A DNA stretch of 64,000 nucleotides from Lentimicrobium saccharophilum (GTDB lineage: Bacteria > Bacteroidota > Bacteroidia > Bacteroidales > Lentimicrobiaceae). Shown here piece after piece: positions 27,286-60,454 of the stretch. The position numbers and the translations under genes were made by a program. The notes under the pieces were generated by a model. That model was given only the letters and a program-made list of their open reading frames with translations. It searched no databases and had not been told where the DNA came from. Location of the stretch: contig NZ_DF968182.1 of assembly GCF_001192835.1 (NCBI RefSeq), forward strand, positions 2,885,113-2,949,112, in the 5' to 3' direction. The stretch's first letter is position 1. Every line of letters starts with the position of its first letter.

Positions 27286-27747
27286 TTGCGGATTGCTGAT
27301 TATTAACTGGTTGGCGTTACAATCAAAACCTCCCGCCCCAGGTCCTATGCCTTAAGGTTGAGGTTAAGGAATTTTTATTAATCAGAAATTCTATAATCCA
27401 GCACCTTCCTTGTCAGCAGGAAATCTGATAGTCCGCAACCGACCGAAGTGAGCTCACCGAAGGTAATCTGCAATATCTTCCCCTTGTCTCCCCGTCTCCT
27501 TGTCCCCTTCAGGTCTGTCGTAAAAGACCCGCGCAACGACGCCAGGACGCAAAGATTGTTTTTACATCTTCCTCTCACTTTCATCTTCTCTCGCTCTCCC
27601 GTTCACCCCGTCTCCTTGTCCCCTTGTCACTCTCTGGAGAGTTTTCCTTTTCAGTGAGCAGGCCGTCCCTCGCCCCTCCTTCAGCGTCCCTCGTCCCGGT
27701 CCCTGAGCGGAGTCGAAGGGCCCCTCCATCAGCGTCCCATGTCCCTC
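27286..27747. repeat. Intergenic cluster of dispersed repeat words
   Basis: 462 bases between two convergent genes, with no coding character. It is a patchwork of words seen elsewhere in the window: ttgcggattgctgatt at 27287-27302 directly after tyrS; ccttgtctccccgtctcctt at about 27481 and a second such run at about 27607 (also at 60001 and 60231); acgccaggacgcaaag at about 27538 (also near 54910 and 55610); cgtccctcg ... ctgagcggagtcgaaggg at 27663-27721 (also at 39515-39601 and 57324-57374). I see no gene or clear terminator. Confidence 0.7.
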
Positions 27748-32908: not shown

Positions 32909-35900
32909 ATGAAAAAAATCAAAAACCTGACTCTTTTGCTGCTCCTCTTTATGACGGGAATTGTGTATACCTATGGTCAGCAACCGTATATTGTCCTTTC
33001 GGGACATGTATTGAACCAACAGACCGGCGAACCGGTCGTCAATCAGTCTGTATTTGTATCGGTCGACAGTATGAATTATCCCGGGTACTTCAACGAAGTA
33101 ATTACAGACGGAGCAGGTTATTATTCCGATAACCTGCCTTACTATTACGGTACTGAACCATTATCCGTCACTGTTTCCACCGCAGATTGTAATGGAATGA
33201 TGTTTACCCAAAGTGCTGCCATCCTTCCAGGCATGCAGCAGATAATCCTGGATTTATACATCTGTGGCAATATGGGATCAGGTTGCACTGCCTTGTTCCG
33301 CTATATGCCGGGCTCAAACGATATGCTTACGGTCAGTTTTTTCGATGAAAGTTATCCGGCTCCGGGAGTCATAATCAACAGCTGGTTCTGGGATTTCGGC
33401 GACGGGAATACATCGTCAGCACAAAACCCGGTACATACCTATTCACAACCGGGTCTTTACAACGCCTGTCTCTACATCAGCAGCAACGACAGTTCATGCA
33501 ACAGCAGCTTCTGTATGCCGGTTGATGCAGGATCGATCAACCCGGGTGGTTGTGAAAACTATTTCTGGTACTGGCCTGATTCATCAGGTACAGGATATAC
33601 ATTTGAAGGCTTTGTGATGAATGGTGAGGCTGAGTCCTATATCTGGGATTTCGGTGATGGCACAACCGCAAACGGACAGACTGTTTTCCATCAGTTTGCC
33701 GATACCAATATGGTCCATAATGTGTGTCTGACCACAACCAGCATCCTGAATGGAGATGTCTGCACCTCGGTTTCGTGCCAGGAAGTTTTTAGTTACTTCC
33801 CTTCATCCTGTGAAAGCTATTTCTGGTATTATCCCGATTCAACAGGCACGGGTTATACTTTCGAAGGCTATACCATGGGCAGCCAGGTTGAATCATGGAC
33901 CTGGGATTTCGGCGACGGAACCACCGCAACTGGCCAATCTGTAACACATACGTTTGCCAACCCCAACGAAATCTACACCGTATGCCTCACCACTACCGGC
34001 ACAGGCCCGGATAACGAGCCATGCACCTATACTTCCTGCCAGGAGGTCTTTATTTACCTCCCTTCACCCTGTGAAAGCTATTTCTGGTATTATCCCGATT
34101 CAACAGGCACGGGTTACACTTTCGAGGGCTATACCATGGGCAGCCAGGTTGAATCATGGACCTGGGATTTCGGCGACGGAACCACCGCAACTGGCCAATC
34201 TGTAACACATACATTTTCCAACCCCTATGAAATATACACCGTATGCCTCACCACTTCCGGCACAGGCCCTGATAATGAGCCATGCACCTATACTTCCTGC
34301 CAGGAGGTCTTTATTTACCTCCCTTCACCCTGCGAAAGCTATTTCTGGTATTATCCCGATTCAACAGGCACGGGATACACTTTCGAAGGCTGGGCAATGA
34401 ACGGACAATCAAACAATCAGATTGAATCCTGGATCTGGGATTTCGGCGATGGAACTACCGCATCCGGACAGGTTGTTTCGTATAGCTTTTCGGACCCGTC
34501 GCAGGTTTACACGGTTTGCCTGACCACAACGGGCACGGGGCCTGATGGCGTAATGTGCAGTTACATATCCTGTCAGGAGGTTTTCTTTGAAATTCCGTCT
34601 CCGTGCGACAATTATTTTGAAGCGGTTACCAACGACGGGAACACTTACCTGTTCACCGGTCACCTGGTGAGTGGCGGACAGGCTGACTATTTCTGGGATT
34701 TCGGGGATGGTTCCACCGCAACCGGTCAGCAGGTCAGTCATACTTTCCAATTTGCATGGGGTATGGTATATAATGTATGCCTCACCACTGTTTCAGCTAA
34801 CCCTGCCGACAGTTGCACGGGCGTTAGTTGTCAGACGATATTCCCAGGCGGCGGCGGAAACTGTGAAGCGGTGATGTCAGCAGTTCCCGATACGGCTGGA
34901 TACACCTATTACTTTGCTGATTTGTCGCAGGGCAATCACTCATTCAGATTGTGGGATTTCGGAGATGGCCAGCAATCTTTTGAAGCCAATCCTGTGCATA
35001 CTTATACAGCGCCAGGCATCTATTGGGCCTGCCTTACTATCAGTGACTCCCTGAACAACTGCTGGGATCAGACCTGTCAGGAGATTTGGGTGGATATTAT
35101 TCAGCCGGGCTGCCAGGCTTCATTCTTTGCTTACCCGGCCGACTCAACGAATTCATCACTCACTTATCAGTTTATCAATACATCAGCACCGGGATTTACC
35201 AACCAGCAATGGTCGTTTGGCGACGGAACAGTTTCTGATGAATTCAGTCCTATACATACATACACCACTGGTGGTATTTATACAGCCTGTCTCACCATCT
35301 GGGATTCGACCAACCTTTGCCAAAGCTCATTCTGTATGGAGATTTTTGCAGGCAACTTTGCCGGTGAAAGTTCAATTTCAGGCAGCGTCATTGCCGGAAA
35401 CGCACCCGCGCAATCAGGTGAAGTGTGGCTGATAGGCGCAACAAATTACTACTTCGCTCAATCACAAGTAGATAGCGGAGGTATCTATAACTTTGGCGGC
35501 GTCCCTGCCGGGTCATACTACATCTATGCCATGCTGACACCGGATGATCCAGCATTCTTTAACTATCTGCCAACTTATTACACAAGTTCACTCACCTGGC
35601 AGGGAGCAACCATAGTTACAACAGGCGAGCCCAACGGGTGGTATCCGGTCAACCTTGTTTCTGTAGCAAGTTGGGCACAAGGTACAGGAAGTATTTCCGG
35701 AACGATCAACTGGAGCGGTAATTTTAAATCAGGGGGTACCCCTGCCGCCAATGTTGAAATCGTTTTATTCAACAGCACAGGTTTGCCTGTTGCCTATACC
35801 TTCTCAAACAGCGACGGCACGTTTACTTTCAGCAATCTTCCTTTCGGTGAATATACCGTTCATGCTGAAATGGCCGGCAAAACCACCCAGGTTATGGTGG

Positions 35901-37316: not shown

Positions 37317-38066
37317 TTAAATAACCCTTGCTTCGGTGTGCAGCAGGTGAACGAGTTCATCCATGTTTTCCGGGTCAATCATCTTGCAGGCCGATTTCTG
37401 CGGAGGCGCCTGGTAACCGACAACCTTACTGCCCGGAGCCGCAGCAGCTGCAGCCACCACTTTCAGGGGTTTGGTGCGGGCGGTCATAATTCCGCGCATC
37501 GAAGGGATTCTCGGGTTGATGGCAATTCCTTTCTGTACAATCAGAACTACCGGTGCTGAGGTTTCTATGCTCTGCTTGCCGCCGTCAATTTCGCGGGTTA
37601 CTTTAACGCTGTTTCCTTCGAGGTTGAGCGAACTGACTGCTGAAACGGAATTGTAATCCAGCAGTTCGGCAAGCATTCCACCCACGGCCGATCCGTTGTA
37701 GTCGCTCGACTCAATGCCACAGAGGATTACATCAAAAGGTTCCCCTTTTACGGCATGTGCTAACTGAGTTGCAGTAAACAGCGAATCGCCGCCCGCAGCA
37801 TCCACCCTGATGGCGTCGTCGGCACCGCAGGCCAGTGCTTTGCGCAGGGTAGGCTCGGCATCAGCGCCTCCGGCTGTTATTACGGTTATTTTCTGAACCA
37901 GTGCTGGATTGGCCTCTTTCAGCTCAATGGCACGGGTAAGGGCAAGTTCGTCCCAGGGATTGATGATCCACTGCACGCCCGAATAATCCACCGCTTTCAT
38001 GTCCGCACTGTATTTGATGCGGGTGGTGGTGTCGGGAACATTGCTTATACAAACAAGGATGTTCAT
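37317..38066 (-). CDS. etfB: Electron transfer flavoprotein, beta subunit
   Basis: 249 residues of the ETF-beta/adenine nucleotide alpha-hydrolase fold: CISNVPDTTTRIKY, WIINPWDELALTRAIELKE, the AMP-binding DVILCGIESSDYNGSAVGGMLAELL and NPRIPSMRGIMTARTKPL. Whether this ETF is a plain carrier or a bifurcating one (NADH plus ferredoxin) cannot be settled by eye; it is paired with a butyryl-CoA-dehydrogenase-like enzyme, as in bifurcating complexes. Confidence 0.95.
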   Translation of the reverse strand: MNILVCISNVPDTTTRIKYSADMKAVDYSGVQWIINPWDELALTRAIELKEANPALVQKITVITAGGADAEPTLRKALACGADDAIRVDAAGGDSLFTATQLAHAVKGEPFDVILCGIESSDYNGSAVGGMLAELLDYNSVSAVSSLNLEGNSVKVTREIDGGKQSIETSAPVVLIVQKGIAINPRIPSMRGIMTARTKPLKVVAAAAAAPGSKVVGYQAPPQKSACKMIDPENMDELVHLLHTEARVI

Positions 38067-38134
38067 TGATTAGTTGATTAGTTGATTAGTTGATTTGAGG
38101 ATAAATCCGAAATCCACAATCCGCAATCCGCAAT
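38067..38134. repeat. Two repeat words in the acd-etfB spacer
   Basis: The spacer consists wholly of two words: ttgattagttgattag type (38067-38097), whose reverse complement recurs at 39831-39912, and aatccgcaatccgcaatc type (38104-38134), the complement of the gattgcgg word near 52181. The acd stop codon (38135-38137) abuts the second word. Confidence 0.8.
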
Positions 38135-39280
38135 CTAAAATTCACTGAGGACTTGCCGCGAAATGACGATTTGCTGTATTTCGGAGGTTCCTTCATAGAT
38201 TTGTGTGAGTTTGGCTTCGCGCATCAGGCGTTCCACGTGGTATTCTTTCACGTATCCGTATCCGCCGTGAATCTGAACTGCCTCTGTGGTGACTTCCATA
38301 GCAATCTCGGCGGCATAGTATTTGGCCATGGCACTGGCATAGCCGTAAGGTTTTCCCTGATCCTTCAGCCAGGCAGCCTTCAGGCACAGGTTGCGGGCAT
38401 TTTCGATCTTAACCGCCATATCTGCCAGCTTAAAGGCTACCGATTGATGGTTGGCAATTTCGGTTCCGAATGCTTTTCTTTCCTTGGAATATTTGACCGC
38501 CCTTTCAAACGCCCCTGAGGCGATGCCCAGGGCCTGGGCTGCAATGCCGATTCTGCCGCCCTCCAGGGTTTTCATGGCAAACTTGAACCCAAATCCATCT
38601 TCACCGATGCGGTTTTCTTTAGGTACTTTTACATCGTTAAACATCACCGAATGGGTGTCGGAGCTGCGCATGCCCATTTTGTCTTCATGCGGGCCAACAC
38701 TGATGCCCGGTGAGTGGCGGTCAACGATCAGCACGTTGATTCCCTTGTGCCCCTTTTCGGGATGGGTTTGGGCAATCACTAAGTAAGTTCCGGCAGTATT
38801 TCCGTTAGTAATCCAGTTTTTGGTTCCGTTGAGCAGGTAATAATCCCCCTTGTCTTCGGCGGTGGTGCGCTGTGAAGTGGCATCCGATCCGGCTTCGGGT
38901 TCCGAAAGCAGGAATGCGCCGATTTTTTCGCCGCGTGCCAACGGTTTCAGGAATTTTTCCTTTTGCGCTTCGGTGCCGAATTTTTCAATTCCGTAACAAA
39001 CCAGGGAGTTGTTCACCGACATGACTACGCTTACCGAAGAGTCAACCTTTGAAATTTCTTCCATGGCCAGCACATACGAAACGGTATCCATACCGCCTCC
39101 ATCGTATTCCGGGTCCACCAGCATACCCATAAAACCCAGTTCCGACAGGGCTTTTACATGTTCGGTGGGATAAATGGCGTGGGTGTCGCGCTCAATCACG
39201 TCTTTAATCAGTTCGCGCTGGGCATAATCGCGGGCAGCCTGCTGAATCATCAACTGCTCTTCCGAAAATTCAAAATTCAT
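38135..39280 (-). CDS. Acyl-CoA dehydrogenase, butyryl-CoA dehydrogenase-like
   Basis: 381 residues from the ATG at 39280 (MNFEFSEEQLMIQQ); the longer frame adds 18 residues without support. Flavoprotein with the usual signatures: FLLSEPEAGSDATSQ (FAD contact), NGTKNWITNG, LEGGRIGIAAQALGIASGAFE, and the catalytic base in IYEGTSEIQQIVISRQ. Oxidises a short-chain acyl-CoA and passes electrons to the adjacent EtfAB. Canonical C-terminal Glu supports a butyryl-/short-chain enzyme. Confidence 0.92.
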   Translation of the reverse strand: MNFEFSEEQLMIQQAARDYAQRELIKDVIERDTHAIYPTEHVKALSELGFMGMLVDPEYDGGGMDTVSYVLAMEEISKVDSSVSVVMSVNNSLVCYGIEKFGTEAQKEKFLKPLARGEKIGAFLLSEPEAGSDATSQRTTAEDKGDYYLLNGTKNWITNGNTAGTYLVIAQTHPEKGHKGINVLIVDRHSPGISVGPHEDKMGMRSSDTHSVMFNDVKVPKENRIGEDGFGFKFAMKTLEGGRIGIAAQALGIASGAFERAVKYSKERKAFGTEIANHQSVAFKLADMAVKIENARNLCLKAAWLKDQGKPYGYASAMAKYYAAEIAMEVTTEAVQIHGGYGYVKEYHVERLMREAKLTQIYEGTSEIQQIVISRQVLSEF

Positions 39281-39916
39281 AGCCGGGAAATTTGTTAATT
39301 TTTTGATAAAATACCTGAAATGCCTGATAAACAAGAAAACTAAACAATGTGTTCAGCCTTTTTCATGGTTTTATTGCATTTGGTCATGATATTCTATACC
39401 CTGATTTGCCGAAGAAAAAGGGCAGGCTTCTGCGGCCTTACTGCCGCTAAGGTAATCATATTTACCAATATAGATGTATTGTAAAGGGAATTTTTTGCAA
39501 ACGATTGCGGGAAGGGGGGACGAGGGACGGCCCTTCGACTTGTTTCGGCTGCGCTCAACAACCGCCGCTCAGGGACCGAGACGAGGGGCGAGGGACGAGA
39601 GATTTCGGATTGCAGAGTGCGGAATGCGGATTAGGCTTCCCCAGCCAATGGTGGTGGGAATTCAGACAACCGTTTGATGTCTAATCCACTTTTTACTTTT
39701 GGAACTTTTTGAAGTCCATGTATTCAACAATATAAATATCTGTATATGTTGTATTTAGCTAACAGGATCAGCTTTATCATATTGCTTCATTCCACAGCGC
39801 GATGAAAATTCACACCTTGCACAGCGATACATTAACTAATTAACTAATTAACTAATCAACTAATCAACTAATCAAGTAATCAGCTAATCCTCTAATCCTC
39901 TAATCAGCTAATATTG
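39281..39916. repeat. Intergenic region rich in dispersed repeats
   Basis: 636 bases without a credible gene. After about 230 bases of ordinary AT-rich sequence come: ggggacgagggacggcccttcgac ... ccgctcagggaccgagacgagggg (39515-39601, same family as 27663-27721, 56853-56892 and 57324-57374; quoted only as pattern), gatttcggattgcag...gcggatt (about 39601-39633), and a degenerate tandem of taactaat/caactaat/cagctaat units (39831-39912) ending five bases before the lnt stop. Confidence 0.75.
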
Positions 39917-45117: not shown

Positions 45118-46760
45118 TTTTGAAAAGAGTGTTTCTGCTTAAGAAAAATAACCACATCAGTCACAGTAGAGCACATCAGGTTTATATATTTACTTTAGGA
45201 TGATGTTACTTCAACAGTTTGAAACAATGAATTTCGCATTTCCTGAAACCAATCTATTGTGTCCTATTCCCGGCAAAGTAGCCGGGACAAGTTGTGTCTA
45301 TTGTGGTGAAAAATACTTCTCTCACTTTAACCAAATTATTAAAAAGAACCACATCAGGCACAGTAGAGCACATTAGGTTTTAGTATTAGCATTGGTTGAT
45401 GTTATTTTAAAGGATTGAGTCATTTTGATTATGTTCATTCCGGCCTTGTATCCTGATCTATTGTGTTCTATTGTGTCTATTGTGGTGAAAAGAAACTTAC
45501 CATATTCTCCCAAATCTACAAAATAAACCATATTAGGCTCAGTAGAGCACATTAGTACCCTTTGGGCAAAGATGCGTATAGCTCTGTAACCATGGTTTTT
45601 TGTCCTTCTTTGAAGATATTCATACAGTTAAAATTAATCAGAATTCCTTTGGGCTTTTCAAGCAACTTTAAGTAGGTAAGCAACTGAGCTTCATGGATTG
45701 GCAATAATCCATCAACAGCTTTTATTTCAACAATGATGGAATCTTCAACCATCAGATCAAAGCGAAGATCACAATCAAGATGCAGTCCCCTGAAAATAAG
45801 AGGGACCCTTTGCTGCGTTACCAGATGAAGCCCTTTTTCTTTGAGCATATGTGCCAGACATTTTTCATATACACTCTCCAGCAATCCAGGCCCAATTTCT
45901 TTATGAACCTCAATTGCAGCTCCAATAACGGTATGAGTTAACTCATTCAGGTACTTTTGTGTCATCTTGTATCTGTTAGAATATTTTTCATTGTGCTCTA
46001 TTGTGACCTATTGTGCCTATTGTGGAGAAAAGAAACTAACCATATTCGCCCGAATCTAATTAAGTAGAACCACATTAGGCACAGTAGCACACATTAGGTT
46101 TTAGTATTAACATTGGTTGATGTTATTTTAAACGATTGAGTCATTTTGATTATGTTCATTCCGGCCTTCTAACCTGATCTATTGTGTCCTATTGTGTCTA
46201 TTGTGGTGAAAAGAAACTAACCATATTCGCCCGAATCTAATTAAGTAGAACCACATTAGGCACAGTAGCACACATTAGGTTTTAGTATTAACATTGGTTG
46301 ATGTTATTTTAAACGATTGAGTCATTTTGATTATGTTCATTCCGGCCTTCTAACCTGATCTATTGTGTCCTATTGTGTCTATTGTGGTGAAAAGAAACTA
46401 ACCATATTCGCCCGAATCTAATTAAGTAGAACCACATTAGGCACAGTAGCACACATTAGGTTTTAGTATTAACATTGGTTGATGTTATTTTAAACGATTG
46501 AGTCATTTTGATTATGTTCATTCCGGCCTTCTAACCTGATCTATTGTGTCCTATTGTGTCTATTGTGGTGAAAAGAAACTTGCCATATTTCTCCAAATCT
46601 ATTAAATAAAATAACCACAGTAGACGCATTAGAACACATTAGGTTCATGCACTAATTTAAGGTTGATGAGATTTAAGGTTGATGAGATTATAGTTTTGAA
46701 TCATTGAATGCTGAATTCCCTGAAAACAATCTATTATGTCTTATTGTCACTGTTATGGTT
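45118..46760. repeat. 181-base tandem repeat array, interrupted by a GxxExxY gene
   Basis: About seven units. Three (from about 46018, 46199 and 46380) are practically identical with an exact 181-base period; units near 45118, 45300 and 45480 and the last near 46561 have diverged. Each unit holds two partly complementary segments: a cctattgtgtctattgtgg type and a ccacattaggcacagtag type, so each can fold into a hairpin. The unit from 45480 is opened and the GxxExxY gene occupies the gap. 181 is not a multiple of three and no frame stays open, so the array is not coding. Confidence 0.92.
45552..45965 (-). CDS. GxxExxY protein (PD-(D/E)XK nuclease-fold family), copy 1
   Basis: 137 residues. 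The name-giving motif is in GPGLLESVYEKCL (near residue 26); the nuclease-type core is LRFDLMVEDSIIVEIKAVDGL with Asp and Glu-x-Lys, then LLTYLKLLEKPKGILINFN. Members are small, of unproven function, often found in multiple copies in Bacteroidetes spacers. The stop codon TAA lies inside the repeat word (acattag) of the surrounding 181-base array, and the complementary word begins 24 bases upstream of the start codon, so the gene is bracketed by an inverted repeat (45527-45555 with 45989-46025). Confidence 0.9.
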   Translation of the reverse strand: MTQKYLNELTHTVIGAAIEVHKEIGPGLLESVYEKCLAHMLKEKGLHLVTQQRVPLIFRGLHLDCDLRFDLMVEDSIIVEIKAVDGLLPIHEAQLLTYLKLLEKPKGILINFNCMNIFKEGQKTMVTELYASLPKGY

Positions 46761-47689: not shown

Positions 47690-48110
47690 AGGAAATTTTC
47701 TATTTCACAGAGATTTAGATTCTTCTCCGTGTTGCTCCGTGAAACCTCAGTGCTCTCTGTGTAACTTATTTTGTTTCACAGAGGATCACAGAGTAGTCAC
47801 AGAGGGTCGCAGAGTTTTAAATTCTTCTCCGTGTTGCTCCGTGAAGCCTCGGTGTGCTCTGTGTAACTTTTTTGTTTCACACAGGATCACAGAGTAGTCA
47901 CAGAGGGTCGCAGAGTTTTAAATTCTTCTCCGTGTTGCTCCGTGAAGCCTCGGTGTGCTCTGTGTAACTTTTTTGTTTCACAGTGATTCAAATCCCTCTC
48001 CGTGTTGCTCCGTGAAGCCTCAGTGCACTCTGTGTAACTTTTTTGTTTCACAGAGATTCAAATCCCTCTCTGTTTTAAGCAGTGAAACCCCCGGTGTACT
48101 ATGTGTAACA
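47690..48110. repeat. 101/70-base direct repeat array between the MBL gene and GxxExxY copy 2
   Basis: The word gtttcacag recurs at 47773, 47874, 47975 and 48045, giving two 101-base periods and one 70-base period in which the ggatcacagagtagtcac segment is missing. Each unit also has ctccgtgttgctccgtgaag and ctctgtgtaac, the latter complementary to the following gtttcacagag, so units form hairpins. Not coding. It starts a few bases after the MBL stop codon and ends at the GxxExxY stop. Confidence 0.88.
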
Positions 48111-48122
48111 GCAAAATAAACT

Positions 48123-48497
48123 TCACATACGATATCTTCGTATACCATCTTTAAGAAGCTTAACATTAAAGTTTATTAACAACCCGATCTCCTTCCTTGA
48201 AAACTTCAGATAGGTTAATATTTGGGCTTCATGAACCGGAGAAAAAAAATCGACGGTTTTTAGTTCGATCACAACTTTTTTATTATCAACGAGAATATCA
48301 ATCCTGTAACCACATTCAAGTTTTATATCTTTATATACAACAGGAACTGCAACTTGCCTTTGTGTGAAGAATCCGGCATTTCTTAGTTCAAAATCAAGAC
48401 ATTCCTCATAAGCCGATTCTAACAAACCTGGTCCAAGGGCTTTGTGCACTTCTATGGCACACCCGATGATTTTGTCTGTTATTTGATTAATTTCCAT
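48123..48497 (-). CDS. GxxExxY protein (PD-(D/E)XK nuclease-fold family), copy 2
   Basis: 124 residues: [17 protein letters not shown] carries the family motif near residue 24, and [20 protein letters not shown] the nuclease-type Asp and Glu-x-Lys; ends [17 protein letters not shown]. It lies between a direct repeat array on its 3' side and, on its 5' side, a broken copy of the MBL gene. Unlike copies 1 and 3 I see no matching inverted arm upstream of its start. Confidence 0.9.
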
Positions 48498-50867: not shown

Positions 50868-51368
50868 GGAGGTAAGAGGTAGGAGGTAAGAAAAAAATTG
50901 TTAATCACTAATAAACAGGATATTATGGAAACAGGATTTAATCCCATAAAATCATTTATGGATCTTGAAGTATATCGGTTAGCCCATAAGCTTGCAATGG
51001 ATGTTTTTTGGATAAGCGCCGGATTCCCGGTTGAAGAAAGATACTCATTGACAGATCAAATCAGGCGATCATCGAGATCCGTTGCTGCCAATATTGCTGA
51101 AGGCTGGGGGAAGAGGAAATATCCGCTTTCTTTTAAAAAACAATTAGTAGATGCCAATGGCTCTCTTGAAGAAACCAAATCCTGGATAATGTTTGCCCGT
51201 GACTGCAAGTACATTTCAATTGAACAATTCGATTCCCTTTTTCCAGATTATGAAACTTTAGGAGGCAAACTCTGGCGACTTGAAGAAAGATGGAAATAAC
51301 ATACCTTTTTCTCAACAGACTTCCTACTTCCTGCTTCCTACTTCCTACCTCCTACTTCTTACTTCTTC
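50868..51368. repeat. Inverted-repeat bracket around four-helix-bundle gene 1
   Basis: Left arm 50868-50892 (ggaggtaagaggtaggagg type) begins two bases after the mccB stop. Right arm 51320-51368 (cttcctacttcctgcttcc, cctacctcctacttcttac type) ends 18 bases before the hydratase start. The right arm read backwards contains gtaagaagtaggaggtagg, which matches the left arm with few differences. The same word occurs again, without a gene, at about 60353-60400. Confidence 0.82.
50925..51299 (+). CDS. Four-helix-bundle protein (S23/IVS family), copy 1
   Basis: 124 residues from the ATG at 50925 (METGFNPIKSFMDLEVY); the upstream TTG at 50898 is less likely. Family hallmarks: FMDLEVYRLAHKLAMDVF, DQIRRSSRSVAANIAEGWGKRKY (key run RRSSRSVAANIAEGWG), ANGSLEETKSWIMFARD. 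The family was first found in intervening sequences of 23S rRNA genes; biochemical role unknown. Here it stands in an mRNA spacer between mccB and the hydratase, in operon orientation. Confidence 0.92.
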   Translation: METGFNPIKSFMDLEVYRLAHKLAMDVFWISAGFPVEERYSLTDQIRRSSRSVAANIAEGWGKRKYPLSFKKQLVDANGSLEETKSWIMFARDCKYISIEQFDSLFPDYETLGGKLWRLEERWK

Positions 51369-51386
51369 ATTCTTAAAAAATCAATC

Positions 51387-52178
51387 ATGAAATTAAAATA
51401 CACCACCCTCGAAACCGAAATTACAAACCAGACAGCAACCGTCTGGCTGAATCGCCCGCAGATACACAATGCCTTTAACGAGGTAATGATTTCGGAAGTG
51501 CTCGAGATCTTCACGGAAATCGGTAAGATGGACGACATCCGGATAGTGCTGCTCCGCGGGCGCGGGAAGTCGTTCTGTGCCGGAGCCGACCTCAACTGGA
51601 TGCGCGATGTGGTGAAGTACAGCTACGAACAGAATTACAAAGAGAGTCTGCAGCTTTCGGAATGTTTCTACGCCATCTACAACTGTCCGAAACCCACTAT
51701 TGCCGTGGTGCACGGAGCGGCCATAGGCGGAGCCAACGGACTGCTTGCTGCCTGCGATATAGCCATTTGCGATGACGAAACGGTTTTTTCGCTTTCCGAA
51801 GTTAAAATAGGCATCGTACCCGCCTGTATTTCGCCCTATGTGATCAAACGCGTGGGAGAATACGGGGCACGTGAGCTTATGCTTACCGGAAAGCGCATTA
51901 AAGGGAAAGAGGCCGAACACTTCAGGCTGGTCAACAAATCGCTCCCTGCGGATGCGCTGGAAAGCCACGTGAACGAGTTGATCGCCCTGCTGATGAGCAG
52001 CGGCCCCAAAGCCATGGCGCACTGCAAAAACCTGATCGATGAGGTGTGCAACAAAATAGACCTGGAAGAGGCGCTCAGCTTCACCGCCCGCATCATCGCC
52101 GAAATCCGCGCCTCGGAAGAAGGCCAGGAAGGGATGGCGGCGTTTCTGGAGAAAAGAAAAGCTAGATGGAATTTATAA
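51387..52178 (+). CDS. liuC: Enoyl-CoA hydratase/isomerase, likely methylglutaconyl-CoA hydratase
   Basis: 263-residue crotonase: LNRPQIHNAFNEVMI, RGRGKSFCAGADLNWM (oxyanion hole), HGAAIGGANGLLAACDIAI and FSLSEVKIGIVPACISPYV with the catalytic acidic residue region. The short ADLNWMR after the oxyanion hole is typical of LiuC/AUH enzymes. Hydrates 3-methylglutaconyl-CoA to HMG-CoA. Substrate is inferred from the flanking mcc and HMG-CoA lyase genes. Confidence 0.9.
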   Translation: MKLKYTTLETEITNQTATVWLNRPQIHNAFNEVMISEVLEIFTEIGKMDDIRIVLLRGRGKSFCAGADLNWMRDVVKYSYEQNYKESLQLSECFYAIYNCPKPTIAVVHGAAIGGANGLLAACDIAICDDETVFSLSEVKIGIVPACISPYVIKRVGEYGARELMLTGKRIKGKEAEHFRLVNKSLPADALESHVNELIALLMSSGPKAMAHCKNLIDEVCNKIDLEEALSFTARIIAEIRASEEGQEGMAAFLEKRKARWNL

Positions 52179-52180
52179 TT

Positions 52181-52920
52181 TCTGATTGCGGATTGCGGAT
52201 TGTGGATTGTGGATTGCGCTTGTCACGAGAGACGGTGATAGCCGATTAACGAGAGATTGCGGATTGCCTAAGGTGAGCCCACTTTCGTTCGGTTGCGGAT
52301 TGCGGATTGTGCCTGCCATACAAAGCTTCTCATCACGGGAAACCCAGGGATTGCAAATTTCAAATTGTGACCTGGACGGCGATCTTAAAACAAATTGTGA
52401 AATAATTTTTATACAGAAAACCAAATCATTTTCTAAACATTTTAAAACACAATAGTCATGGATAAGTATGAAATGCAAAAAAGACTAATGAACCTGGTAA
52501 TTGCAGTAATCAGACTTACAAAAGGATTCCCGATTAGTCAGGAAAGCAAAGTGATCGCATATCAAATCATTAAATCTGCAACTTCAACGGCAGCAAATTA
52601 CCGGGCAGCATGCAGGGCTAAATCAGCCAGAGATTTTATTGCCAAGATGGGGATTGTTGAAGAAGAAGCAGATGAAACAGAACTTTGGCTTGAATTGGTA
52701 AAAGCAATAAATCTTGCCCGTGAAGAAGAAGTTGGGCCATTACTGAAGGAGGTCTCTGAAATAATTGCAATTACGGTGGCATCAATCAAAACTTCAAGAA
52801 AAACATTAAGATAGTGGTGATTAAACAAAAACCCGGGATTTTGCTTTAAACTTCTTACAAAGGCAAAACCAGCAAAATGACAAGCAATCCGAAATCCGCA
52901 TTCCAAAATCCGAAATCTCC
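52181..52920. repeat. Inverted-repeat bracket around four-helix-bundle gene 2
   Basis: Left arm 52181-52224 (tctgattgcggattgcgg ... gcgcttgtc) begins two bases after the hydratase stop; right arm 52879-52920 (gacaagcaatccgaaatccg ... cgaaatctcc) ends exactly at the base before the mccA ATG. The inner ends pair as cttgtc with gacaag, the rest as gattgcgg-type against ccgcaatc-type. A second stretch of the left word lies at 52252-52310. The same word stands at 27287, 38104 and 39601 without a gene. Confidence 0.85.
52458..52814 (+). CDS. Four-helix-bundle protein (S23/IVS family), copy 2
   Basis: 118 residues starting MDKYEMQKRLMNLVIAVIRL. Hallmarks are IAYQIIKSATSTAANYRAACRAKSARDFIAKMGIVEEEADETELWLEL (key runs KSATSTAANYRAAC and EEADETELWLEL). 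It belongs to the subgroup that resembles the 23S rRNA-associated proteins but is clearly diverged from copies 1 and 3, so the three genes are not recent duplicates of one another. Confidence 0.92.
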   Translation: MDKYEMQKRLMNLVIAVIRLTKGFPISQESKVIAYQIIKSATSTAANYRAACRAKSARDFIAKMGIVEEEADETELWLELVKAINLAREEEVGPLLKEVSEIIAITVASIKTSRKTLR

Positions 52921-54903
52921 ATGAAACTTCTTATAGCCAACCGCGGCGAAATCGCCCTCCGCATCCAGAAAACCGCCCGTCGTATGAGTATTCCGGTGGT
53001 GGCTGTGTATTCACATCACGACAGGGACGCGCAGCATGTGCTGCAGGCCGGTGAGGCGGTTTTGCTTCCCGGAGAAAATCTGTCGGAAACCTACCTGAAT
53101 ATTGAAGCCGTCATTGCCGCTGCGAAGAAAACGGGGGCAAACGCCATACATCCCGGATACGGGTTTCTCTCCGAAAATCCCCTGTTCTCAGAAGCCTGCG
53201 AACGCGAAGGCATCACCTTTGTCGGGCCCTCGGCAGCTTCGGTCAGGGCGATGGGGAATAAAATTGCCGCCCGCGAAGCAGCTGTTAAACTGGGTGTTCC
53301 GGTTACCACGGGGGTTACCGGTGCCCCGGATTATTTGCTTGCAAATTACGATAAGGTCGGGTTTCCCATGCTTATCAAAGCGGCAGCCGGCGGAGGCGGA
53401 AAGGGCATGCGCATCGTCCGTACGCCCGGAGAACTCGGGCAGGCACTTGAAAATACCTCGCGCGAAGCATTGAATTACTTCGGCGATGGCACGGTGTATA
53501 TCGAACAGTTCATCGAAGGTCCGCGGCACATCGAGTTTCAGGTACTCGGCGACAAGCACGGCAATATGGTGCATTTGTTTGAACGTGAATGCTCCGCACA
53601 GCGCCGGCATCAGAAGATCATAGAGGAAGCCCCCTCCCCGGCCCTCACACCCGAAGTCAGGAAAAAGATGGGGGAATCGGCCGTGCTGCTCGCTTCATCC
53701 ATAGGCTATTACAGCGCAGGAACCATTGAATTTCTGGTGGATAAAGACCTGAATTATTACTTCCTGGAGATGAACACCCGCATACAGGTGGAGCATCCGG
53801 TAACTGAGCTGACTACCGGCGTTGACCTGGTAGAAGAGCAGATCCGCATCGCCAACGGAGAGAAACTCAGGTTTAAACAGTCTGGCCTGGTACAGAAAGG
53901 ACATGCCATTGAATGCAGGATTTACGCGGAGGATCCGTTTAACAACTTTATGCCCTCACCCGGAAAAATTCATCTGTATCGTGAGCCGGCCGGTCAGCAT
54001 ATAAGGGTCGACAGCATGGAAATCAAAGGCAAGGGGGTAATTCACAGCGCCTTCGATCCCATGATCGGCAAACTCATTACCCGGGGCGAAACACGGGAAG
54101 ATGCCCGCGGCCTGATGATCCATGCACTGAGCCAGTTCGTCGTTCAGGGCATACAAACCAATATTCCTTTTCTTAGCGGACTTGTACAACACGATTCGTT
54201 TATCCGCAATGCAATCACCACCCGGTATATCGACGACGAACTCGATCATCTGATCGGACATGTAAAAACGCTTAAAGCTTCGGTCGATCCGCGGATTCCA
54301 CTGCTGGCGGGATTGCTGGAGAGCCTTAAAATCAAAGATGAAAAGAAGGACAGCGTCTGGCAGACTATAGGCTACTGGCGAAACCTCCCGGAACCAAAAC
54401 TGCGGCTGGACGGGCAGGAGCACCAGCTGAATTTCATTTCCATAACCCCGGGAAAGATAAAGATCCGTGAGAACAATGCCTTAACGGAGGCGCTGCTGCG
54501 CGAAGACGATTCAGCATCCTATCTGATTCTGGATGGATTAAGCTACAGTTTTCATGCCTGCGCGGATGAGAAGGGCGTGATCACGGTGAATAACTGCGGA
54601 TTTCAGTTTCAGTTTGAAAGGGCTGACATGGCCCGACCCGAACATGTGGATGTCTTCAATGCTGGAGAACTTCAGACCGACCTGAGCAAAATTGTCTCGC
54701 CCATGCCAGGCAAAGTGATAAAGGTGAATGTTCCGGAAGGCGAGAAAGTATATAAAGGGCAGGTTTTGCTGGTTGTTGAAGCCATGAAGATGGAAAACAA
54801 CGTCCTGAGTCCGGCCGACGGCTTGATAAAACGCCTGTACGTAAAGGAAGGCGATACCGTGGACGGCTCCGCGCTTTTGGTGAACCTGGACACAACGTCT
54901 TAA
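52921..54903 (+). CDS. mccA: Methylcrotonyl-CoA carboxylase, biotin carboxylase/carrier (alpha) subunit
   Basis: 660 residues: biotin carboxylase N-domain (LLIANRGEIALRIQKTARR), ATP-grasp with KAAAGGGGKGMRIV and FLEMNTRIQVEHPVTE, biotin carboxylase C-domain to about 450, a variable middle part and a C-terminal biotinyl domain with EAMKMENNV. Carboxylates its own biotin with ATP and bicarbonate and feeds MccB. Length and architecture fit MccA/LiuD. The ATG is set directly against the right repeat arm, leaving no Shine-Dalgarno sequence. Confidence 0.94.
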   Translation: MKLLIANRGEIALRIQKTARRMSIPVVAVYSHHDRDAQHVLQAGEAVLLPGENLSETYLNIEAVIAAAKKTGANAIHPGYGFLSENPLFSEACEREGITFVGPSAASVRAMGNKIAAREAAVKLGVPVTTGVTGAPDYLLANYDKVGFPMLIKAAAGGGGKGMRIVRTPGELGQALENTSREALNYFGDGTVYIEQFIEGPRHIEFQVLGDKHGNMVHLFERECSAQRRHQKIIEEAPSPALTPEVRKKMGESAVLLASSIGYYSAGTIEFLVDKDLNYYFLEMNTRIQVEHPVTELTTGVDLVEEQIRIANGEKLRFKQSGLVQKGHAIECRIYAEDPFNNFMPSPGKIHLYREPAGQHIRVDSMEIKGKGVIHSAFDPMIGKLITRGETREDARGLMIHALSQFVVQGIQTNIPFLSGLVQHDSFIRNAITTRYIDDELDHLIGHVKTLKASVDPRIPLLAGLLESLKIKDEKKDSVWQTIGYWRNLPEPKLRLDGQEHQLNFISITPGKIKIRENNALTEALLREDDSASYLILDGLSYSFHACADEKGVITVNNCGFQFQFERADMARPEHVDVFNAGELQTDLSKIVSPMPGKVIKVNVPEGEKVYKGQVLLVVEAMKMENNVLSPADGLIKRLYVKEGDTVDGSALLVNLDTTS

Positions 54904-54904
54904 A

Positions 54905-55637
54905 GAATCACGCAAGGACGCTAAGACGCAACGTTGTTTTTCTGTATTGAATAAACTGTAAGATCCTTTATTCGCCGTGAAAAAAAAAGAATCACGCAAG
55001 GACGCTAAGACGCAACGTTGTTTTTCAGTATTGAAAAACTGATGATTTGTCACATCAACAAATAATGAAATAAAGATCACAGGAGGTACGCTAGCAAAAA
55101 CAATTAAATCATTTATTATGACCGAAAACGAAATTGCTAAAATTGTCTGGGATATTTGTTTCAGGATTCATAAAGTTTTAGGGCCTGGCCTTTTAGAATC
55201 TGTTTACGAAGAAATCCTGACTTATGAATTAAATAAATTGGATTTATCGTTTGAAAGACAAAAATCAATTCCTGTAGTATAGGAGAGTTTGAAACTGGAA
55301 ACGGGTTTTCGGGCTGATGTTATTATTGAAAATAAAGTTATTGTTGAATTGAAATCTATCGGTGAAATTAATCCGGTTCATCAAAAGCAGGTACTGACTT
55401 ATCTGAAAATTACCGGATTAAAATTAGGATTACTGGTTAATTTCAACGCAAGTTTGTTAAAGGATGGGTTTCAAAGAATTGCAAATCATCTTTAATAAAC
55501 AATTACCTTAGTGCATTAAAAGCACGGGAAAATCAATTAATCATTGCTTCAATGTGACCCCATCTGCCGTTGGGCAGATTTGCGTGAGACCCGAAAGAAA
55601 ATCAAATAACCTTTGCGTCCTTGAGTCGTTGCGTGAG
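54905..55637. repeat. Inverted-repeat bracket around GxxExxY copy 3
   Basis: Left arm gaatcacgcaaggacgctaa type occurs twice, at about 54905 and 54989 (84-base direct repeat that begins right after the mccA stop). Right arm cctttgcgtccttgagtcg, ttgcgtgag (55610-55637) is its imperfect reverse complement. A further gcgtcttggcgcgagg follows at about 55663. The word also occurs without a gene near 27538, 59866 and 60051. Confidence 0.8.
55118..55495 (+). pseudogene. GxxExxY protein copy 3, interrupted by one nonsense codon
   Basis: 126 codons in one frame from the ATG at 55118 to the final stop. GPGLLESVYEEIL carries the family motif; FRADVIIENKVIVELKSIGEI the nuclease-type Asp and Glu-x-Lys. 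Codon 55 (55280-55282) is TAG, where copy 2 has Tyr in [10 protein letters not shown]; a single T-to-G change (TAT to TAG) explains it. No frameshift or other damage is seen, so the loss is recent, or the codon is read through. The part after the stop could start at 55289 but lacks the motif. Confidence 0.88.
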
Positions 55638-55705
55638 AAAAAACCTAAATTTATTGAACTCAGCGTCTTGGCGCGAGGCACCTCAGAAAATCAAAACAGT
55701 GCGAT

Positions 55706-56851
55706 ATGGACTACAATCTTAGTGAAGAACACCGGATGATCAGGGAGACGGTCCGGCAGTTTGCAGAGCGGGAAATCAGGCCGCTGGCACGTGAGCTCGA
55801 CGAAAAGGAGACATTCTCCCCCGAACTTACCCGCAAAATGGGTGAACTTGGCCTTTTCGGCATTTACCTTCCGGAGAAATATGGCGGTCAGGGCATGGAC
55901 TACCTTGCTTACATTATTGCCGTTGAGGAGATTGCACGCGTCGACGGCTCACAGGCTGCTACGCTGGCAGCCCATAATTCCCTGGGAATCGGTCCCCTTT
56001 ACTATTATGGCAGCGAGGAGCAGAAAATGAAATACCTGCCCATGCTCTGTACGGGCGAGGCCCTATGGGCCTTCGGACTTACCGAACCGGATGCCGGATC
56101 TGACTCCCGCGGTTCAAAAACCCGCGCCACACTCGAAAACGGGGAATGGGTCATCAACGGCTCCAAAATATTCATCACCAACGGCTCAGCCGATAACTCC
56201 ATGGGCGCGACGGTACAGGCCGTAACCGGCGAAAAACAGGGGAAGAAAGAGTTTACCACCATACTGGTCGACAAAGACACTCCCGGATTCACCCGGCAAA
56301 CCATGCACGGCAAAATGATGTGGAGGGCCTCTGATACCTCGCAGCTCTTCTTTGACGACTGCCGCGTTCCGGAATCCAATCTGCTGGGAAAAGTAGGTGA
56401 AGGCTCCAAAATCATGCTTTCAACGCTCGATTCGGGCAGACTCTCCATTGCAGCCATGGGACTCGGCTGCGCGCAGGGAGCTTACGAACTTGCCCTGAAC
56501 TATGCCAAAGAACGGAAACAGTTCGGACAACCCATCTCAAAATTCCAGGCCATCGCCTTTAAACTGGCCGATATGGCGATGAAAATAGAACTTGCCCGAA
56601 ACCTGCTCTACAAAGCCTGCTGGCTGAAGGATACTAACCAGCCTTTCGCCATGGAATCGGCCATGGCAAAACTTTATTGCTCCGAAATCGCCAGAGAGGT
56701 GGCCGACGAAGCCGTGCAGGTTCACGGAGGCTACGGATTGATGAAAGACTACGAAATCGAACGCTTCTACCGCGACCAGCGCCTGCTTCAGATAGGTGAA
56801 GGCACCTCGGAGATTCAGCGGCTGGTGATTTCGAGGTATATCGGGTGCTGA
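55706..56851 (+). CDS. Acyl-CoA dehydrogenase, likely acting on isovaleryl-CoA
   Basis: 381 residues: GLTEPDAGSDSRGS, NGSKIFITNGS, LDSGRLSIAAMGLGCAQGAYE, and IGEGTSEIQRLVISRYIG. By position in a leucine operon it should oxidise isovaleryl-CoA to methylcrotonyl-CoA, passing electrons to ETF. However, the Glu in GEGTSEIQ sits at the ordinary acyl-CoA dehydrogenase position, while the LDSGR segment has Gly where isovaleryl-CoA dehydrogenases carry their catalytic Glu (DxER). So it is not of the classical IVD type; a short/branched-chain enzyme is an alternative. Confidence 0.88.
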   Translation: MDYNLSEEHRMIRETVRQFAEREIRPLARELDEKETFSPELTRKMGELGLFGIYLPEKYGGQGMDYLAYIIAVEEIARVDGSQAATLAAHNSLGIGPLYYYGSEEQKMKYLPMLCTGEALWAFGLTEPDAGSDSRGSKTRATLENGEWVINGSKIFITNGSADNSMGATVQAVTGEKQGKKEFTTILVDKDTPGFTRQTMHGKMMWRASDTSQLFFDDCRVPESNLLGKVGEGSKIMLSTLDSGRLSIAAMGLGCAQGAYELALNYAKERKQFGQPISKFQAIAFKLADMAMKIELARNLLYKACWLKDTNQPFAMESAMAKLYCSEIAREVADEAVQVHGGYGLMKDYEIERFYRDQRLLQIGEGTSEIQRLVISRYIGC

Positions 56852-56852
56852 A

Positions 56853-57374
56853 GGAGGGACGAGGGACGGAAAAAGGGACGGGGGACGAGGGAGTATAAAT
56901 AATTAATTCAATTAAAATTTCCTTTTATGATTGATCGGTTGGATGATATCAGATTCTACAAGCTATCCCTGGAGCTATGGGATGAGATGTGGACTGATAC
57001 TGAAATCCTGATGCTGGATTTCAGAGGAAAAGAAATCGCAAAGCAAATGGTCAGGTCCGTAGGCTCAATCAGTTCAAATACTGAAGAAGGATATGGAAGA
57101 GGTTTTGGAAAGGAATACCCGCAATTTCTCCGGATCAGCCGTGGTTCTGCAAGGGAGTCAAAAGGGTGGTACCGAAAATGTAACAAACTGTTAACCCCGG
57201 AAATAATCAATTCCAGAATTCTGAAGCTGGATGAAATTATTTCAATGGAAACTAAAGCGATACAAACACTGGAGGACAAGTCAAAACATTAATCTGATCG
57301 GACGTGTTTCTTAAAAAAGCACATCGTCCCTCGGCCCGGACCCGGAGCGCAGCCGAAGGGGCGTCCCTCGTCCC
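56853..57374. repeat. Inverted-repeat bracket around four-helix-bundle gene 3
   Basis: Left arm 56853-56892 (ggagggacgagggacgg ... gacgaggga) begins one base after the dehydrogenase stop. Right arm 57324-57374 (tcgtccctcggcccgg ... gcgtccctcgtccc), its imperfect complement, ends 13 bases before the HMG-CoA lyase ATG. The right arm includes the gcagccgaagggg extension shared with 27700-27721 and 39531-39560. Confidence 0.84.
56927..57292 (+). CDS. Four-helix-bundle protein (S23/IVS family), copy 3
   Basis: 121 residues starting MIDRLDDIRFYKLSLELW. Hallmark run AKQMVRSVGSISSNTEEGYGRG followed by EYPQFLRISRGSARESKGWYRKC. Overall shape (helices of about 25 residues, SSNTEEGYGRG turn) fits the family, but sequence differs from copies 1 and 2. 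Operon orientation, between acyl-CoA dehydrogenase and HMG-CoA lyase. Confidence 0.9.
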   Translation: MIDRLDDIRFYKLSLELWDEMWTDTEILMLDFRGKEIAKQMVRSVGSISSNTEEGYGRGFGKEYPQFLRISRGSARESKGWYRKCNKLLTPEIINSRILKLDEIISMETKAIQTLEDKSKH

Positions 57375-58993: not shown

Positions 58994-59160
58994 ATAGAAA
59001 ATTTCTAATTCCTAATTCCTAATTTTTAATTTCCAAAAGTGTAATTTATTGGATACAAGGGCCGTAATTACTAATCCTACCTTAACCTTAACCTCAACCT
59101 TAACCTCAACCTAAGCCTCAACCTGACTTCCGGCCTCCAATATAAAAAAGCTTACAGAAA
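58994..59160. repeat. Repeat words in the scoA-scoB spacer
   Basis: Contains aatttctaattcctaattcc type (about 59000-59033) and a hexamer run of ccttaacctcaa type (59080-59125). The latter word recurs at about 59838, 60143, 60401 and 62951. No gene; just the words. Confidence 0.8.
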
Positions 59161-59817: not shown

Positions 59818-60454
59818 TTTCTAACATCCAGCATCTTGCCTCAACCTCAACCTCCGCATCCTTACCCCGCGCAAAGACCCCGCCATAGCGGGACAAGCTG
59901 CTAAGGCGCAGAAATTGTTTTTTTTGCATTTTCTTTCCATTCTCCTGACTTACTACTTTATCAAGTTCCTATTGAAAACCCATGCTCCAATCAATCTTCC
60001 CCTTGTCACCCCGTCTCCTTGTCCCCTTGTCAGTTTCTTTTGAAAAAGCCCCGCGCAAAGACACAAAGCTTTTTTGGATTACCATTACGTTACCAAATCT
60101 GAGTACCTCGCAGGATTTGCAGTCTTACTTCTTACCTCAAATCTCAACCTCAGCCTCAACATTATCTTCCCCATCACAACAGTGCCCCTAAATCCGAATT
60201 CAGAAATCAGAAATCAGAAATCCGCCTTCCCCTTGTCACCCCGTCTCCTTGTCTCCTTGTCAGTTCCTTTTGAAAAGCCCCGCTCAAAGAAGAAAAGTTT
60301 TTCTGGATTACCATTGCGTTGCCAAATCTGAGTACCTCGCAGGATTTGCAGTCTTACTTCTTACCTCTTACTTCCTACTTCCTACTTCTTACTTCTTACC
60401 TCAGCCTCAACCTTAACCTCCACCTTGGTTGCTGAGCGAAGTCGAAGCACAACC
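59818..60454. repeat. Repeat-word cluster with a 141-base direct duplication
   Basis: 637 bases between convergent genes. A segment from 59996 to 60136 recurs at 60226-60366 with about 90 percent or higher visible identity; both contain ccttgtcaccccgtctcctt, a gaaaagccccgc run, ggattaccatt and aatctgagtacctcgcagga. Around them stand the words cctcaacctcaacc, gcgcaaagac, cagaaatcagaaatc, cttcctacttcc and ctgagcgaagtcgaag. No ORF with coding character and no clear terminator. Confidence 0.82.

Follow-up and report, generated by a model that had tools for sequence, protein, structure and literature searches.

Why do four spacers of one bacterial leucine operon each hold a small gene enclosed by inverted repeats, and what ties these genes to their repeats? 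We addressed this question in a 64,000-nucleotide (nt) stretch of the Lentimicrobium saccharophilum genome (contig NZ_DF968182.1; G000:C1:2885113-2949112, where G000 denotes the window's genome), hereafter called the window. The mccB/hydratase, hydratase/mccA, mccA/dehydrogenase and dehydrogenase/HMG-lyase spacers of this operon contain one small gene each, numbered here as cassettes 1 to 4. We found that the repeats, or arms, are inverted tandem arrays of a short word and that the word co-varies with the subtype of the protein encoded between them, which is the central point of this work. A preliminary description of the locus had taken the cassettes for mRNA counterparts of 23S rRNA intervening sequences or for an element resembling a miniature inverted-repeat transposable element (MITE) with a protein passenger. 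This interpretation was partly supported, but it had missed both the tandem-word structure of the arms and the co-variation of word and subtype.

A profile search with Pfam and NCBIfam confirmed the four genes and assigned three of them, all on the plus strand, to the four-helix-bundle (4HB) family PF05635/TIGR02436: 4HB-a in cassette 1 (50925-51299, E = 6.7e-31), 4HB-b in cassette 2 (52458-52814, E = 1.8e-17) and 4HB-d in cassette 4 (56927-57292, E = 2.9e-14). Their scores of 107.1, 63.9 and 53.6 bits exceed the curated cut-off of 33.8, which bears out the proposed kinship with the protein of 23S rRNA intervening sequences. The plus-strand gene of cassette 3 (55118-55495) matches PF13366/TIGR04256, the GxxExxY family, in two pieces (55118-55282 and 55283-55495) with an in-frame TAG at 55280-55282 between them. 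Both pieces pass the curated cut-off (GxxExxY / PDDEXK_3; 49.2 and 75 bits against 22), although the frame is broken; orthologues in genomes G003 and G016 have no internal stop. For 4HB-a, the median dN/dS was 0.06 (6 pairs, 4 orthologues).

All four arm pairs consist of tandem copies of a 7- or 8-nt word, inverted between left and right, so that the architecture of one word per cassette is supported. In plus-strand coordinates, the left arm of cassette 1 (50869-50892) holds about three copies of GGAGGTA and begins 3 nt after the mccB-type stop codon, and its right arm (51319-51365) carries the inverse word and ends 21 nt before the hydratase ATG. Cassette 2 has five copies of GGATTGC on the left (52184-52225), 5 nt after the hydratase stop, and an AATCCGA word on the right (52878-52917), 3 nt before the mccA ATG. 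Cassette 3 uses the 8-nt word ACGCNAAG (left arm 54908-54931, with a second arm copy at about 54992-55015; right arm 55613-55636). The left arm of cassette 4 (56854-56892, GGGACGA) lies 2 nt after the acyl-CoA dehydrogenase stop and faces a CGTCCCT right arm (57324-57374) with an inner hairpin-like insert. The arms had been described as close to host stop and start codons, and the left arms of cassettes 1, 2 and 4 indeed lie 2-5 nt after stops and the right arms of cassettes 1 and 2 lie 3-21 nt before starts.

We located arms by an inverted-match search of the flanks combined with reading by eye. The best local inverted matches were 50869-50892 / 51342-51365 for cassette 1 (score 16.5), 52184-52225 / 52878-52917 for cassette 2 (17.5), 54908-54931 / 55613-55636 for cassette 3 (14.0) and 56856-56868 / 57362-57374 for cassette 4 (13.0). 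Dinucleotide shuffles of the flanks reached these scores in 0, 0, 2 and 4 out of 500 cases. Mismatched pairs from the same genus, which set one gene's upstream flank against another gene's downstream flank, reached them in 1.1, 1.0, 2.3 and 3.4 percent of cases, a hard null because words recur within the genus. Single arm pairs of the window are just moderately beyond chance, and the weight of the case therefore comes from the full set and from relatives elsewhere.

To this end we collected PF05635 and PF13366 genes from 19 same-genus genomes (151 and 82 matching open reading frames (ORFs)), and removal of duplicates, of genes with less than 150 nt of flank on a side and of domain matches below 70 residues left 96 4HB and 41 GxxExxY genes. 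With 400-nt flanks, 53 of the 96 and 10 of the 41 scored above the 99 percent point of mismatched pairs, compared with none of 167 control ORFs of at least 150 amino acids from twelve 20-kb stretches, which were called mechanically and surely include some that are not genes. At a score of at least 14, arms flanked 61 of 80 non-housekeeping 4HB genes, against 0 of 16 in a housekeeping 4HB clade with about one copy per genome, and 18 of 33 GxxExxY genes, against 0 of 8 in one clade. A genome-wide count against random small genes had been proposed as a check; with the housekeeping paralogues and the ORFs of at least 150 amino acids as comparison groups, arms turned out to be far commoner around the cassette genes. 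Shuffles, mismatched flanks and control genes together rule out that the arms arose by chance.

Beyond the genus, we examined the 30 best-scoring loci from the wider phylum and a GTDB set made from the best 80 of 582 matches to a single profile (86 genes in 77 loci), which is for that reason biased to one clade. A score of at least 14 was reached by 14 of the 30 phylum loci and 58 of the 86 GTDB genes; for mismatched pairs the share was 2.3 percent in the genus and 5.7 percent in the GTDB set. PF05635 matches occurred in 193 of 247 genomes sampled across the phylum, and most named loci carrying the family belong to Bacteroidota. Arm-bearing loci of the GTDB set include Indibacter, Roseivirga, Flavobacterium, Pedobacter and Chryseobacterium, as well as single records of Ignavibacteriae, Balneolaceae, Fibrobacter (one of two) and Peregrinibacteria. 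Relatives of 4HB-a were found on plasmids in 43 records, 15 of them from Nostoc, and none was found in phage records. All 12 cyanobacterial plasmid loci that were read, out of 15 listed, have inverted arrays of 7-9-nt words (for example, GGGGAGCA, GGGGAGGCA and GGGGGCA) that score 14.5-56 with 500-nt flanks; in one 45-kb plasmid stretch the two arms were the sole arrays with at least three copies among four rows found. Plasmid-borne GxxExxY genes, of which we compared six loci from 8 records, showed clear CACAGAG-based arms in two, Bernardetia and Bacteroides (18.0 and 22.5); Gemmatirosa scored 54.5 from a different kind of match, and three loci scored 11-12. Elsewhere, too, GxxExxY genes occupy operon-like spacers among ordinary genes, between fabD and fabG of Sphingomonas (L374), at radA on the Bacteroides plasmid (L373) and at ade in Bernardetia (L372).

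Across this material the word follows the protein. In the protein tree, most clades have a private word that is present in both arms (for example, AATTTCT, GGATTGC, GATTTAC, GAATTAC, GGCTAAA, GGAGTAA, GGGAGCGA, GGTTGA and GGGGTTCAA), and the period is 7 in 103 of 133 scored 4HB elements. We compared all pairs of 131 arm-bearing 4HB elements, drawn from 212 genes at a score of at least 14 and a length of at least 90 residues. Word sharing rose from 0.5 percent for proteins less than 30 percent identical in different neighbourhoods to 97 percent for those at least 70 percent identical in the same neighbourhood. Pairs with unrelated neighbour genes also shared words, in 6 of 7 cases at an identity of at least 70 percent and in 8 of 22 at 60-70 percent. 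Shared words keep one polarity relative to the gene, and the reverse-complement control gave 0 above 50 percent identity.

The persistence of the words is informative about their pace of change. Among pairs that are at least 60 percent identical and whose synonymous divergence (dS) is at least 2 or saturated, 64 of 92 keep the word, whereas the linkers between arm and ATG are alike in 3 of 87 synonymous-saturated pairs. At 50-60 percent identity and the same dS, just 73 of 498 pairs keep it. Because words outlast saturated synonymous sites and linkers do not, the word evolves at about the pace of the protein rather than that of neutral DNA. The 4HB genes are under purifying selection, with median dN/dS values of 0.06, 0.12, 0.12 and 0.09 for four types (pairs with undefined dS left out).

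Orthologous spacers of the leucine operon, at which words were assigned by reading and several arm pairs score below 14, show gene and word being exchanged together. In the hydratase/mccA spacer, six genomes have 4HB-b with GGATTGC (the gene is shortened in G006) and seven have 4HB-c with AATTTCT, the two proteins being 28-32 percent identical. At the dehydrogenase/HMG-lyase spacer, 4HB-d with GGGACGA occurs in five genomes and 4HB-e with GGAGACAA in six; at the mccA/dehydrogenase spacer, a GxxExxY type with ACGCNAAG occurs in five and another type with GCCACAAAG-like words in four. In the mccB/hydratase spacer, five genomes carry 4HB-a with GGAGGTA and two carry a form that has diverged to 66-69 percent identity and has GGAGGTC, the same base being changed in both arms. 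Among the spacers covered, bare ones of 19 to 151 nt were seen in G002, G007 and G008. Counting the empty state, a quick dehydrogenase gene tree requires at least 5 state changes at the hydratase/mccA spacer, 6 at mccA/dehydrogenase and 4 at dehydrogenase/HMG-lyase. Of the 12 genomes in which a fifth spacer (L003) was read, six have it empty (19-117 nt), three show gene-less remnants of GTGTTC words, two carry one 4HB type with GGTGTTCA and G000 carries another type.

The turnover between filled and empty sites that the preliminary description had proposed to look for therefore exists. Its further expectation, that arms accompany the gene in orthologous operons, held by reading, although some pairs are weak (4HB-e of G005, 10.0, and of G017, 9.5; GxxExxY of G003 and G006, also below 14). 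Among the genus loci examined, 4HB types a, b, c and e did not occur outside their own spacer, and we rejected genome-wide mobility of the 4HB cassettes within the genus for this reason. Comparison of 4HB cassettes revealed no recognisable target-site duplication, and the flanks of loci L004 and L001 offered no usable empty orthologous site. That types swap in the same spacers, yet types a, b, c and e keep to their own, suggests turnover by recombination or homing and not free transposition.

Several details of these spacers are recorded here as side observations. In G013, G004 and G014, the mccB/hydratase spacer (178-179 nt) has no 4HB gene and is filled by GGGACGA and GCGTC words with an inner hairpin-like insert, CCCTTCGGCT...CAGGG. 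Word arrays at L341 and L350 (G012) and at about 52220-52265 of the window contain or adjoin another kind of short insert, TTGTCTCGGGAGCG...CGATAACGAGAG. At the left edge of an L003-type spacer in G013 (L328), an array of CTGAACAC, read on the gene's strand, continues in register into the neighbour's start codon, as if arrays grow to the coding border.

Position relative to host genes is equally regular across the larger sets. The median distance from the upstream stop codon to the outer edge of the left arm is 3 nt in both the genus (n = 46) and GTDB (n = 49) sets and -2 nt in the phylum set (n = 13). The right arm precedes the next start by a median of 4-15 nt, as judged from ORF calls and their first ATG, and the neighbours are co-directional in 93 of the 118 elements for which both were called.

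Word arrays also occur alone. Across 304 kb of G000 there are 35 tandem arrays with a period of 6-10, and 31 of them are intergenic. A 23-nt AATTTCT pattern, searched with at most one mismatch and with overlapping matches counted, had 178 matches in G012 and 0-34 in the other genus genomes, and the reversed pattern had none in all 19. In 20 G012 regions chosen among the exact matches listed, we assigned 27 arrays to the gene end closest to each: 14 are no more than 20 nt from a stop codon, all in sense; 7 reverse-complement and 2 sense arrays precede starts; and 4 antisense arrays follow stops, all at least 96 nt away. AATTTCT counts were higher in 8 genomes with 4HB-c than in 10 in which it was not found (one-sided P = 0.0005, phylogeny ignored; the counts include the cassettes' own arms, the G010 gene is only a piece, and G015, whose operon was not covered, was left out).

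In the window itself, solo arrays are present at 38066-38135 (no strand assigned), where the inverse of GATTAGTT precedes a start (38066-38095) and GGATTGC follows a minus-strand stop (38104-38135); at 39834-39912 on the minus strand, where GATTAGTT lies 4 nt after a minus-strand stop; and at 59000-59033 on the plus strand, where AATTTCT lies 6 nt after the CoA-transferase A stop. Neither a 4HB-c gene nor a recognisable 4HB-e gene is among the 8 PF05635 genes found in G000. Further solo arrays of TCCCCTTG and CGTCCCT-like words, the inverse of the GACAAGG and GGGACGA words, lie at 27479-27697 and 59998-60261.

The window contains more GxxExxY genes. One, on the minus strand (domain match 45615-45944), lies between arrays of a 9-10-nt word (TCTATTGTG and its inverse) with an arm score of 16.5, and beside it a 181-bp tandem repeat (45457-46645, 3.6 copies) contains the 9-nt word TCTATTGTG. 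Another, at about 48135-48488 on the minus strand, has no inverted arms by the score used (8.0) and is next to tandem units of 101 and 70 bp (47708-48109) in which CACAGAG words abound. A 261-bp tandem repeat with 2.4 copies occupies 33772-34391.

A single GxxExxY lineage is the only case in which we saw free transposition. In G011, elements of about 700 bp with sharp ends stand at unrelated sites. Of 14 loci that we compared, 12 have the element whole or in part (L181-L191 and L193; one example is L182:1833-2531), and L192 and L194 gave no match. Their terminal repeats are GGGTWATTCA / GAAATACCC (ten left and eight right ends), which presumably resemble IS1595-type ends. By reading, the six copies with both ends have 8-bp direct duplications that are exact in three, one of these allowing for a changed end base, and one base off in the other three. 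Inverted GACACCAA-like words lie inside the elements, and this combination of inner word arms with MITE-like ends and duplications suggests that a word cassette rides a MITE-like carrier. Such a carrier with 8-bp duplications was found for this lineage only. Several G011 contigs end within a copy of the element.

What, then, could couple a protein subtype to its word? We define a cassette as a small gene, mostly of PF05635, that lies between two inverted tandem arrays of a subtype-specific 6-9-nt word. Our best explanation, to which we give roughly an even chance, is that these are selfish or semi-domesticated word cassettes whose pentameric protein reads its own word and whose arms fold the cassette out of the mRNA. 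The PDB relatives 2gsc and 2rld contain 5 chains each, and the title of the paper on Xcc0516 (2gsc) reportedly names five four-helix bundles. Arm copy number has medians of 5.2-6.6 with long tails. Taken together, the five-chain relatives and these medians lead us to prefer the picture of a five-subunit ring reading about five 7-mers, for which the TRAP protein was the inspiration. Such a pentamer would recognise an array of about five copies of its own word, most probably in RNA or in single strands, since array polarity follows host transcription. In the mRNA, pairing between the two arms would loop out the cassette and juxtapose the upstream stop and the downstream start; a stop brought to within a few nucleotides of the next start would explain why operons tolerate cassettes. 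The protein may in turn help its own word arrays to persist or spread, as has been proposed for the REP-associated tyrosine transposases (RAYTs) of repetitive extragenic palindromes (REPs).

The fold-out itself, which the preliminary description had also suggested, is so far a prediction. In the minimum-energy RNA fold, the arms paired in 54 of 57, 52 of 58 and 12 of 14 elements, and the counts were 9, 11 and 3 when the right arm was a foreign one; this covered up to the first 60 elements of each set, excluding those with N or with long spans. Pairing is expected of elements chosen for inverted similarity, so these folds show only that it beats other folds. Both the recognition of the word by the protein and the exit of the cassette from the mRNA are inferred.

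Several observations weigh against this explanation. The co-variation is explained in part by joint descent of gene and arms, and P values that ignore phylogeny are too small because the sequences are related. Among 4HB genes, 28 of 86 in the GTDB set and 16 of 30 in the phylum set scored below 14. An inverse partner is missing near most solo arrays, so pairing cannot be their role. The notion that solo arrays need their cognate gene in the genome held for AATTTCT and failed for GACAAGG, which does not track its gene type (P = 0.21), and G000 holds solo arrays, GACAAGG included, of words whose gene was not found there. Likewise, G007, G008 and G011 match the flanks of L001, apparently in its word arrays, and no gene of that type was seen in them. 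A composite GGGACGA pattern, too specific to decide the matter, matched only in the carriers G012 and G018 and in none of the carriers G000, G013, G004 and G015. Finally, the recombinase genes near cyanobacterial cassettes, considered below, point to DNA rather than RNA.

Passive hitch-hiking would require no recognition at all: slippage-prone arms would travel with the gene through one shared history, and hairpin-templated repair would keep the two arms alike. Most shared words at high identity do come from close pairs in the same neighbourhood, copy number differs between near relatives, and the arms of one element can diverge, as in L065 (ACCAATC versus ACTATTC). We nevertheless consider this rather unlikely, because words outlast synonymous sites and linkers (64 of 92 against 3 of 87, above), are shared across unrelated neighbourhoods and, as solo arrays at stop codons, have a fixed polarity. 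A DNA mobile element, with the arms as terminal inverted repeats that contain multiple binding sites and the 4HB protein as an end-binding accessory to a recombinase or transposase acting in trans, would account for spacers that are both filled and empty. Six of the 12 cyanobacterial plasmid loci (L359, L364, L366, L367, L368 and L369) have a tyrosine recombinase or integrase annotated next to the 4HB gene or in its vicinity, which would also fit, as would the terminal repeats and duplications of the G011 elements. Yet the 4HB cassettes compared lack a recognised target duplication, types a, b, c and e keep to their own spacer, and solo-array polarity is tied to host transcription, all of which make this alternative improbable.

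A further view is that the cassettes are intervening sequences of mRNA, with an incidental protein and arms that serve RNase III cutting or folding. The 23S rRNA intervening sequences with an S23 (IVP) ORF belong to the same protein family, likewise place the ORF inside inverted, pairing-capable ends, and the predicted folds agree with this. The cited part of the work on Coxiella describes an intervening sequence that has a 28-bp terminal stem and can be cleaved in vitro with RNase III; the S23 protein that it encodes is seemingly not made in vivo (PMC4990558). The cassettes differ in lying in mRNA spacers between protein genes and not in rRNA; no Rfam match was found in the window or in the eight loci scanned (L302, L290, L285, L296, L268, L231, L235 and L241). 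They differ also in arms made of tandem words that vary with protein subtype, in being many per genome and in the presence of solo arrays. Since tandem words and word-protein matching would not be needed for cutting or folding, most solo arrays lack a partner and the 4HB genes are under purifying selection, we regard this view as quite improbable.

The own-word-reading cassettes that we favour have an organisational parallel in the REP/RAYT system, in which a locus-bound gene lies between inverted copies of its own repeat, repeat type tracks protein clade and solo repeats are dispersed genome-wide. The cassette gene is similarly flanked by its own repeat, with dispersed solo copies detailed for AATTTCT in G012 only. 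However, its product is a helix bundle and not an HUH transposase, polarity is set by host genes, and the repeats are tandem 6-9-mers, unlike the GTAG-headed palindromes of REP. No HUH (Y1) transposase domain was matched in the profile search, which returned only PF05635, bAvd (below threshold) or PF13366. The weak, sub-threshold bAvd and DivGenRetAVD matches of 4HB-a reflect a related helix bundle, the Avd protein of diversity-generating retroelements. We know of no function for PF05635 outside rRNA elements and Avd relatives. Exact-phrase searches of open-access papers, which are weak evidence of absence, found no literature link of PF05635 or GxxExxY genes with tandem words.

The arms also resemble the short tandemly repeated repetitive (STRR) sequences of filamentous cyanobacteria. 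According to the cited part of PMC2670836, these are tandem repeats, usually of 7 bp, that lie between genes, can form hairpins and have no known function; cassette arms are likewise tandem, mostly 7-nt words that are hairpin-capable and lie between or before genes. An older suggestion reported there, that 7-bp repeats may stabilise transcripts or provide translational coupling between genes, fits a cassette pairing that brings stop near start (PMC2670836). The TAACTGA repeats of Beggiatoaceae are often found directly upstream of start codons, and the cited part of that paper offers only the speculation that a repeat-binding protein could be the mobile element (PMC4679880). In contrast to the cassettes, neither repeat has a cognate protein named for it in the parts of these two papers cited here (PMC2670836, PMC4679880). 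The protein family and tandem heptamers were thus known separately; we judge the cassettes to be a new kind of element because no known family with testable defining features contains them.

A wider proposal, which we put forward tentatively and hold to be less probable than the cassette explanation itself, is that 4HB pentamers form a family of tandem-word readers with swappable specificity. Each ring would bind about five copies of its own 7-mer, the word would evolve with the protein, and the dispersed repeats of cyanobacteria, Bacteroidota-like genomes and perhaps Beggiatoaceae would be scattered targets placed at gene ends through a transcript-linked process. Bacterial 7-letter repeats thereby gain a candidate protein partner. 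If protein and word do form a recognition pair, the puzzles of PF05635 and of the 7-bp repeats would merge into one testable question, dozens of natural specificity variants would be at hand for learning the recognition code, and the cassettes would represent elements of a new kind, able to reside within an operon and leave it unbroken.

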